The translations under genes were made by a program, and so were the position numbers. A DNA stretch of 64,000 nt, taken from Phaeovulum sp. Lineage in GTDB: Bacteria > Pseudomonadota > Alphaproteobacteria > Rhodobacterales > Rhodobacteraceae. The stretch covers positions 1-64,000 of the forward strand of contig NZ_JAUXPI010000014.1 of assembly GCF_030684035.1 (NCBI RefSeq). Reading direction: 5' to 3'. Shown here piece after piece: positions 47,747 to 49,333 of this stretch; positions within the stretch are counted from its first letter, which is position 1, and every line of letters begins with the position of its first letter. The notes under the pieces were generated by a model. It was not told the origin of the DNA. It worked only from the letters and a program-made list of their open reading frames with translations, and did not search any database.

Positions 47747-47830
47747 TGGTGGGCGACCCTGGAATCGAACCAGGCGTGGGTCTCCCCGGCGGAGTTACAG
47801 TCCGCTGCCGCACCTTGCAGCTCGTCGCCC
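47747..47830 (-). tRNA. tRNA-Tyr (anticodon GTA)
   Basis: Reading the minus strand, acceptor stem GGGCGAC pairs with GTCGCCC, the anticodon stem GCGGA/TCCGC encloses loop CTGTAAC with anticodon GTA, and the T arm is CCTGG-TTCGATT-CCAGG. A long variable arm of class II type lies between anticodon and T arms, as expected for bacterial tRNA-Tyr. The 3' CCA is encoded (47747-47749). A promoter lies just upstream. Confidence 0.95.
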
Positions 47831-47952: not shown

Positions 47953-48729
47953 ATGAAAAAACCTGATTGGGTAATCGAGAAAGAGCGTGGCAAGCGCGCG
48001 GCGGCGGCTGAAACGGTATGGCTTTTCGGCCTCCACGCGGTGCGCGACGCGCTTTTGAACCCGGCGCGGGTGAAGTTGCGGCTGGTGCTGACCAAGAATG
48101 CCGCCGACCGTCTGGGCGAGGCGGTCGCCGCCGGGGGGGTGGAGCCTGAAGTCGTCGATCCGCGGCGTTTCGACGTGCCGATCGACGAAGGCTCGGTGCA
48201 TCAGGGGGCAGCGCTCGAGGTCAAACCGCTCAACTGGGGTTCGCTGGAAGACGTCTGCCTTGACGGACGCGGCGCGCCGCTTGTGGTGCTGCTCGACCGG
48301 GTGACGGACCCGCACAACGTTGGCGCGGTGCTGCGTTCTGCCGAGGTCTTCGGTGCCCGGGCGGTGATCGCCCCGCTACGCAATTCGGCACCCGAAACCG
48401 GCGCGCTGGCGAAAACCGCAAGCGGCGCGCTGGAACGGCAGCCCTATTTGCGTGTCACCAACCTTGCCGAGACGATGGAAACGCTGAAGGGCATGGGCTT
48501 TGTGCTTCTGGGTCTCGACGGCGAGGCCGAGGCAGAGCTTGGTGCCGCGCTCGCGGGATTGGGGTCAAGACCGATCGGGCTGGTGCTTGGGGCCGAAGGT
48601 CCGGGGCTGCGCGACAAGACCAAGGCCACTTGCGATGCACTGGTTCGAATACCCTTTGCCGCAGGCTTCGGCTCGCTCAACGTATCGAACGCCGCCGCCG
48701 TGGCGCTTTATGCCGCGACCACGCATTAG
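47953..48729 (+). CDS. rlmB: 23S rRNA (guanosine-2'-O)-methyltransferase RlmB-like (SpoU family)
   Basis: 258 residues. The N-terminal substrate-binding domain begins ETVWLFGLHAVRDALLNPARV. The SpoU knotted methyltransferase domain has LDRVTDPHNVGAVLRSAEVFGA (motif 1), LVLGAEGPGLR (motif 2) and SLNVSNAAAVALYA (motif 3). RlmB methylates G2251 of 23S rRNA in the peptidyl-transferase centre; TrmH is less likely given the N-terminal domain. GGAGAG precedes the ATG. It is divergent from tRNA-Tyr. Confidence 0.92.
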   Translation: MKKPDWVIEKERGKRAAAAETVWLFGLHAVRDALLNPARVKLRLVLTKNAADRLGEAVAAGGVEPEVVDPRRFDVPIDEGSVHQGAALEVKPLNWGSLEDVCLDGRGAPLVVLLDRVTDPHNVGAVLRSAEVFGARAVIAPLRNSAPETGALAKTASGALERQPYLRVTNLAETMETLKGMGFVLLGLDGEAEAELGAALAGLGSRPIGLVLGAEGPGLRDKTKATCDALVRIPFAAGFGSLNVSNAAAVALYAATTH

Positions 48730-48762
48730 CGATCACAACTGCGCGAATTGTCGCACCGGGCC

Positions 48763-48791
48763 TTCAAAGTGGCCCCCTGCATCCATATATT
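48763..48791 (+). promoter_or_regulatory. Candidate promoter of the small RNA at 48.8 kb
   Basis: TTCAAA (48763-48768), a 17-base spacer, then TATATT (48786-48791). It lies about 35 bases after the rlmB stop codon. Transcription would start near 48798, at the foot of a strong hairpin. Confidence 0.5.
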
Positions 48792-48797
48792 GGGGTG

Positions 48798-48885
48798 AGG
48801 AGGCGTGGCACCGGAACTGCCGTGCCTCGCGTTACTGTCCCTCGTTCCGTCACTTGCGCCCGGGCTTTGGCTCGGGCGCTTTTTC
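48798..48885 (+). ncRNA. Candidate small RNA (~88 nt) with two hairpins and an intrinsic terminator
   Basis: The predicted transcript has a 5' hairpin: GAGGCGTGGCA (48800-48810), 7-base loop, TGCCGTGCCTC (48818-48828), an 11-pair stem with two G-U pairs. A 27-base unpaired linker (48829-48855, pyrimidine-rich centre GTCCCTCGTTCC) follows. Then comes the intrinsic terminator: GCGCCCGGGC (48856-48865), loop TTTG, GCTCGGGCGC (48870-48879), then TTTTT. It is either a stand-alone sRNA or a terminated leader of the CoA-binding protein gene 17 bases downstream. I know no named family that fits. Confidence 0.6.
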
Positions 48886-48901: not shown

Positions 48902-49333
48902 ATGCAGAACCCTTCCGACGCCGCTATCCGAACAATCCTTGGCAGCACCCGCGTGATCGCCGTGGTGGGTATTTCCGCCAATCCCGATCGCCCCTCGCAT
49001 GGCGTCGCCCGGTTTCTGCAATCGCGCGGCTACCGGATCGTGCCGGTGAATCCGGGACTTGCCGGGCAGGAATTGCTGGGTGAAAAGGTCTGGGCCGATC
49101 TGGCCTCGATACCTTCCGATGCGGAAGTTGACATGGTCGATGTCTTCCGCAGGTCCGAAACGGTGCCCGAGGTCGTGGCCGAGGCGCTGGCGCATCTGCC
49201 GAAGCTGCGCACGGTCTGGATGCAACTTGGCGTAACCAGTGCCGAGGCGGCGGCGATGGCCGAGGCGCGCGGCATTGCCGTGGTGCAGAACCGCTGCCCG
49301 GCAATCGAATACCCGCGGCTGATGCCACGCTGA
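48902..49333 (+). CDS. CoA-binding domain protein (YccU-like)
   Basis: 143 residues. A Rossmann CoA-binding fold: VIAVVGISANPDRPSHGVAR near residue 20, then YRIVPVNPGLAGQELLGEKV and VDMVDVFRRSETVPEVV. Matches the stand-alone CoA_binding_2 family (E. coli YccU) related to the succinyl-CoA synthetase alpha N-terminal domain. No catalytic role is established. A strong terminator lies just upstream of the start, so expression may depend on read-through or on an internal promoter that I cannot see. Confidence 0.9.
   Translation: MQNPSDAAIRTILGSTRVIAVVGISANPDRPSHGVARFLQSRGYRIVPVNPGLAGQELLGEKVWADLASIPSDAEVDMVDVFRRSETVPEVVAEALAHLPKLRTVWMQLGVTSAEAAAMAEARGIAVVQNRCPAIEYPRLMPR

Follow-up and report, generated by a model that had tools for sequence, protein, structure and literature searches.

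In the window (the whole stretch of 64,000 nt that was analysed), an rlmB-type rRNA methyltransferase gene and a CoA-binding protein gene lie on the same strand and are separated by a gap of 172 nt (Table 1), as a preliminary description of this DNA had stated. The 11-pair 5' hairpin, the 27-base linker, and the 10-pair GC stem with its TTTG loop and TTTTT run that this description had placed in the gap were all found there, agreeing base for base. Upstream of rlmB, a tRNA-Tyr was seen on the minus strand (window 47747–47830), and a tRNA-like stretch also stands ahead of rlmB at locus L070.

Table 1. Genes and features at the rlmB / CoA-binding gene locus (window coordinates)
Feature	Position	Strand	Evidence or remark
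rlmB-type (SpoU family) rRNA methyltransferase gene, upstream	47953–48729	+	Pfam PF00588, PF08032
Upstream DNA element TCACAACTGCGCGA (TCAC-N6-GCGA), possible regulator site	48733–48746	+	Kept in 54/132 copies
Predicted RpoH-type promoter: -35 CTTCAAA 48762–48768, -10 CCATAT 48783–48788	48762–48788	+	RpoH consensus favoured over sigma-70, 132 copies
5' hairpin, 11 pairs 48800–48810 / 48818–48828, loop CCGGAAC 48811–48817	48800–48828	+	Both-side changes; invariant loop GGAAC
Possible pseudoknot: loop CGGAAC 48812–48817 with GTTCCG 48844–48849	48812–48849	+	RNAalifold; flanking-pair counts
Linker, 27 nt, with core ACTGTCCCTCGTTCC at 48834–48848	48829–48855	+	Core identical in 131/132 copies
Intrinsic terminator: 10-pair GC stem 48856–48879, TTTG loop, TTTTT 48880–48884	48856–48884	+	Terminator scan; pairing across 46 sequences
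CoA-binding protein gene (CoA_binding_2), downstream	48902–49333	+	Pfam PF13380; start 17 nt past T-run

Taken alone, the promoter and terminator signals are weak, being near chance in simple scans: the 3 kb scanned hold one sigma-70-like and one terminator-like site, where shuffling predicts 0.4 and 2.9, respectively. The segment 48797–48885 folds at -42.9 kcal/mol (z = -3.4), a stability equalled by none of 200 shuffles. When the first base is included in the fold, the 5' GAGG pairs with CCUC of the linker, and folding from 48798 gives the 11-pair 5' hairpin. The candidate is raised above chance because it is conserved in relatives.

The loci of these relatives were fetched via the neighbouring CoA-binding protein and hence were not selected by the RNA itself. 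The module of hairpin, linker, and terminator was observed upstream of the CoA-binding gene in 40 of the 41 Rhodobacteraceae loci obtained in this way, and it was not found at the CoA-binding-protein loci fetched from non-Rhodobacteraceae groups. A covariance model built from the relatives' copies matched 221 of 247 Rhodobacteraceae genomes (about 90%), with one copy per genome in all but one of the genomes listed; outside the family, it gave only E values of at least 0.01, no more than chance across the genomes searched. Searches including the covariance model revealed no second copy in the source genome. The upstream neighbour within 1.5 kb is an rlmB-type gene in 58 of 75 loci.

The compensatory changes that the preliminary description had named as a check on the stems are present: in an alignment of 46 sequences, every one of the 11 pairs in the 5' stem was seen to change on both sides. 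For the complete structure, the covariation score is 0.285; shuffles give 0.160 ± 0.009, and sliding the partner gives no more than 0.111. In the terminator stem, 90% of the cells are paired across the 46 sequences. Neither the loop GGAAC nor the linker ACTGTCCCTCGTTCC varies in this alignment. The 15 bases of the linker core are identical in 131 of 132 distinct copies, a set that was partly recruited by the covariance model and is thus biased to the consensus, while the 41 neighbour-selected loci are free of that bias. These data demonstrate that the small RNA gene between rlmB and the CoA-binding gene is genuine and not a product of chance.

Comparison with known alphaproteobacterial small RNAs, also proposed in the preliminary description, led to StsR of Rhodobacter sphaeroides, a regulatory RNA of stress and stationary phase. 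The complement of the published Northern probe for this RNA, GGACAGTGAAGGTAGAACGG (PMC11354728), has an exact match in the rlmB / CoA-binding gap of genome G053, which we infer to be R. sphaeroides, fitting strain 2.4.1. The same genes flank the RNA on both sides in the window and in G053, in the order rlmB, RNA, CoA-binding gene, and one covariance model scores both copies (95.1 bits for the window and 81.8 bits for G053). Because the published probe matches the same gap, the candidate is, with high confidence, best explained as a whole as an ortholog of stsR (formerly RSs0827), which encodes a trans-acting small RNA of R. sphaeroides. The reading as a small RNA given in the preliminary description is thus borne out by the stem covariation and by a locus that is that of a Northern-detected RNA.

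The following data on StsR were found in the literature: in R. sphaeroides, it targets UpsM and rpoE in trans, and its promoter is of the RpoH type (PMC8307010); it has been seen under iron limitation (PMC3413700) and late in singlet-oxygen stress (PMC3688512); and it has been termed an orphan sRNA (PMC8625941). The likeness extends to the hairpin, the invariant linker, and the terminator, as well as to a predicted RpoH-type promoter and a predicted pairing with the UpsM leader. Several differences also exist. The published RNA is 72 nt long, whereas the prediction from promoter to T-run is 83–87 nt for G053 and the window, the start being inferred; in the source genome, the searches used gave neither a clear second RpoH nor ChrR; and its UpsM pairing site is not the same in detail. 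Scans at the Rfam gathering threshold gave no family in the window or in the six loci tested, and StsR is unrecognised by Rfam 15. StsR outside R. sphaeroides was not found in the literature searched; the primary paper (NAR 2021, PMC8266604), which lay beyond that search, may already state its conservation.

The rival that survives best, although we consider it rather unlikely, sees the RNA first and foremost as a cis-acting terminated 5' leader, or attenuator, of the CoA-binding gene, like UpsM for mraZ, with any trans role being secondary. The preliminary description had offered a terminated leader as its alternative, and this holds in part for the architecture, with the CoA-binding gene close behind the T-run. 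This gene lies downstream in 72 of 75 loci, many of them selected by that gene, and its start, 17 nt past the T-run here, is no more than 40 nt away from it in 60 of 73 genomes. A spacing of this size leaves no room for a separate promoter of the CoA-binding gene unless it overlaps the small RNA, and the gene is probably reached by read-through, the simplest account of this arrangement. Comparable read-through past a terminator has been reported for UpsM-mraZ, family-wide in Rhodobacteraceae (PMC5089854): UpsM (RSs0682) is the terminated 5' leader of mraZ/dcw, in which an intrinsic terminator shortly before the start codon yields both a small RNA and a read-through leader. UpsM, however, belongs to another gene and has another sequence, StsR being its pairing partner, and StsR also occurs without its usual downstream gene. 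At three loci (L092, L099, and L104), the RNA is present and the CoA-binding gene is missing, and in L092 the RNA precedes a gene on the opposite strand; the RNA is therefore the conserved unit. The published trans action of StsR also stands against a primarily cis-acting role, no antiterminator is apparent, and what stays invariant is the linker rather than the terminator. By eye, the neighbours in L092, L099, and L104 resemble holB-type (opposite strand), NDUFA12-type, and trmB-type genes.

Membership in another known small RNA family, for which SorY (RF02651) gave the best match, is hardly credible. SorY, an sRNA of Rhodobacter that depends on RpoH, is similar in length and also has a GC-rich terminator, and the match is full-length, but the 18.8 bits lie far under the gathering cut-off of 111 bits. 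In the source genome, the SorY-like locus (68.6 bits) is at another place, and a distinct SorY in G053 passes the cut-off, the only such match among the genomes searched, as fits R. sphaeroides 2.4.1. A weak suhB match at the locus was rejected like that of SorY. The SorY-like RNA of the source genome (C32:45446–45526, L005) was seen beside a purL-like gene, and sub-threshold SorY matches in most Rhodobacteraceae suggest that the family is wider than Rfam shows. The idea that the gap holds merely the rlmB terminator after a chance hairpin and promoter-like bases agrees with the near-chance scan counts, but it is practically eliminated by the conservation in the neighbour-selected loci, the stem covariation, the invariant linker, and the presence of the RNA also where rlmB is not upstream. 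Equally implausible is a short translated ORF as the functional product, since, despite a ribosome-binding-site-like GAGGAG and an in-frame GTG at 48805, the frame enters the CoA-binding gene without a prior stop, and relatives show stem covariation and length changes that are not multiples of three.

Returning to the StsR ortholog, the preliminary description had read its promoter as TTCAAA (48763–48768), N17, and TATATT (48786–48791). These bases are present, but the sigma-70 reading is replaced by one of the RpoH type, the -10 element of which lies 3 nt upstream of TATATT. Across the 132 copies, a CTTTAA-type -35 and a CCNATNT-type -10 stand about 70 and 48 nt before the linker core, respectively. 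A score of 10 or more was obtained for the RpoH (sigma-32) consensus in 58% of the copies, against 11% of shuffled ones, and for the sigma-70 consensus in 2% of the copies. By these consensus scores, the predicted promoter is RpoH-like, not sigma-70, and transcription would be expected to start at about 48795–48798. The published RpoHI/HII elements are a -35 TTG and a -12 TAT (PMC10673084), whereas the -35 box here carries TTC (CTTCAAA). The source genome has one rpoH gene above the model cut-off, and a model search gave no clear second one comparable with that of G002, G003, and G053. The motif TCAC-N6-GCGA recurs at a similar position in 54 of the 132 copies, against 0.1 in shuffles, and TCACAACTGCGCGA may perhaps be an activator site. 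It was noted about 20 nt upstream of the -35 box, and many other relatives show TTCACA...TTAC instead.

The loop sequence CGGAAC of the 5' hairpin and the linker end GUUCCG are reverse complements of each other, and RNAalifold prefers pairing between loop and linker over the 5' stem. Five of the pseudoknot pairs never vary and hence are uninformative. The pair flanking them is CG in 91, UA in 18, UG in 7, CA in 12, and another combination in 4 of the 132 copies, and the column statistics for this pair give a Fisher p of 4e-5 (46 sequences). On a tree of 41 loci, the flanking pair changed independently three to four times, never in the wrong direction, which is too few for significance. Of two extra sets of copies, the first (about 30, best-scoring) added no U-A support, and the second (lower-scoring) did. 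These comparisons lend moderate support to a predicted pseudoknot between the hairpin loop and the linker.

Apart from the linker, no long stretch of the RNA is both unpaired and invariant, and the linker core is likely the seed for target pairing. Concerning the targets, energy prediction pairs the family linker with the mraZ leader of the source genome at UGGGACGAGGG...CAGUGG with -26.0 kcal/mol, a value matched by one shuffled target and three shuffled linkers out of 300 each. With the first base as it stands in the window, the predicted energy is -23.9; of 2121 window stretches, 15 equal or beat this value, and some of these are antisense to the RNA itself. The best complement to the linker within the window (-33.7) was discarded as merely the antisense strand of the small RNA. 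The UpsM complement GACGAGGG occurs in 11 of 15 genomes, with weaker support in one of these (G175), and it is absent or weak in the other four, including G053. In G053, the UpsM pairing is weaker, but a 12-nt complement, GGACAGTGAAGG, is predicted further down the dcw leader. Because three genomes (G036, G037, and G009) keep the RNA although the UpsM complement is missing, conserved targets besides UpsM are likely. A ChrR search found no ChrR-marked rpoE locus in the source genome or G053; genomes of the same genus have ChrR, and G053 gave no ChrR match, so this search may miss some. At three mraZ loci (L122, L129, and L130, of G051, G012, and G285, respectively), the mraZ start seems to be a GTG inside GGGACAGTG, which perfectly complements CACUGUCCC in the StsR linker and is missing in the source genome.

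Based on this evidence, we propose that stress and the stationary phase would lead to transcription of an RNA of about 87 nt from the RpoH-type promoter. Its linker would base-pair, probably with Hfq, the gene for which is present in the source genome, with the 5' leader RNA of dcw/mraZ (UpsM) and with other messages, and this pairing would lead to cleavage by RNase E, in line with what has been published for R. sphaeroides. The hairpin would protect the 5' end of the RNA and offer its loop GGAAC to the linker end GUUCC, so that the pseudoknot may shield the seed. Transcription would probably in part pass the terminator into the CoA-binding gene. That StsR is both a two-state RNA, with a loop-seed pseudoknot opened by the target, and the terminated leader of the CoA-binding gene is, as a joint proposal, tentative and doubtful. 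If it is true, one stress promoter would give a trans-acting small RNA and, by read-through, a protein, and the near invariance of the linker would reflect a set of targets across the family that goes beyond UpsM.

Given how closely it is linked to the CoA-binding gene, the "orphan" StsR may share a transcript with that gene. The covariance model can be used for annotating StsR, and the conservation shows which parts to mutate. As a single-copy RNA of nearly the whole Rhodobacteraceae with a linker that hardly changes, StsR appears to be a core regulator of the family rather than a peculiarity of one species.
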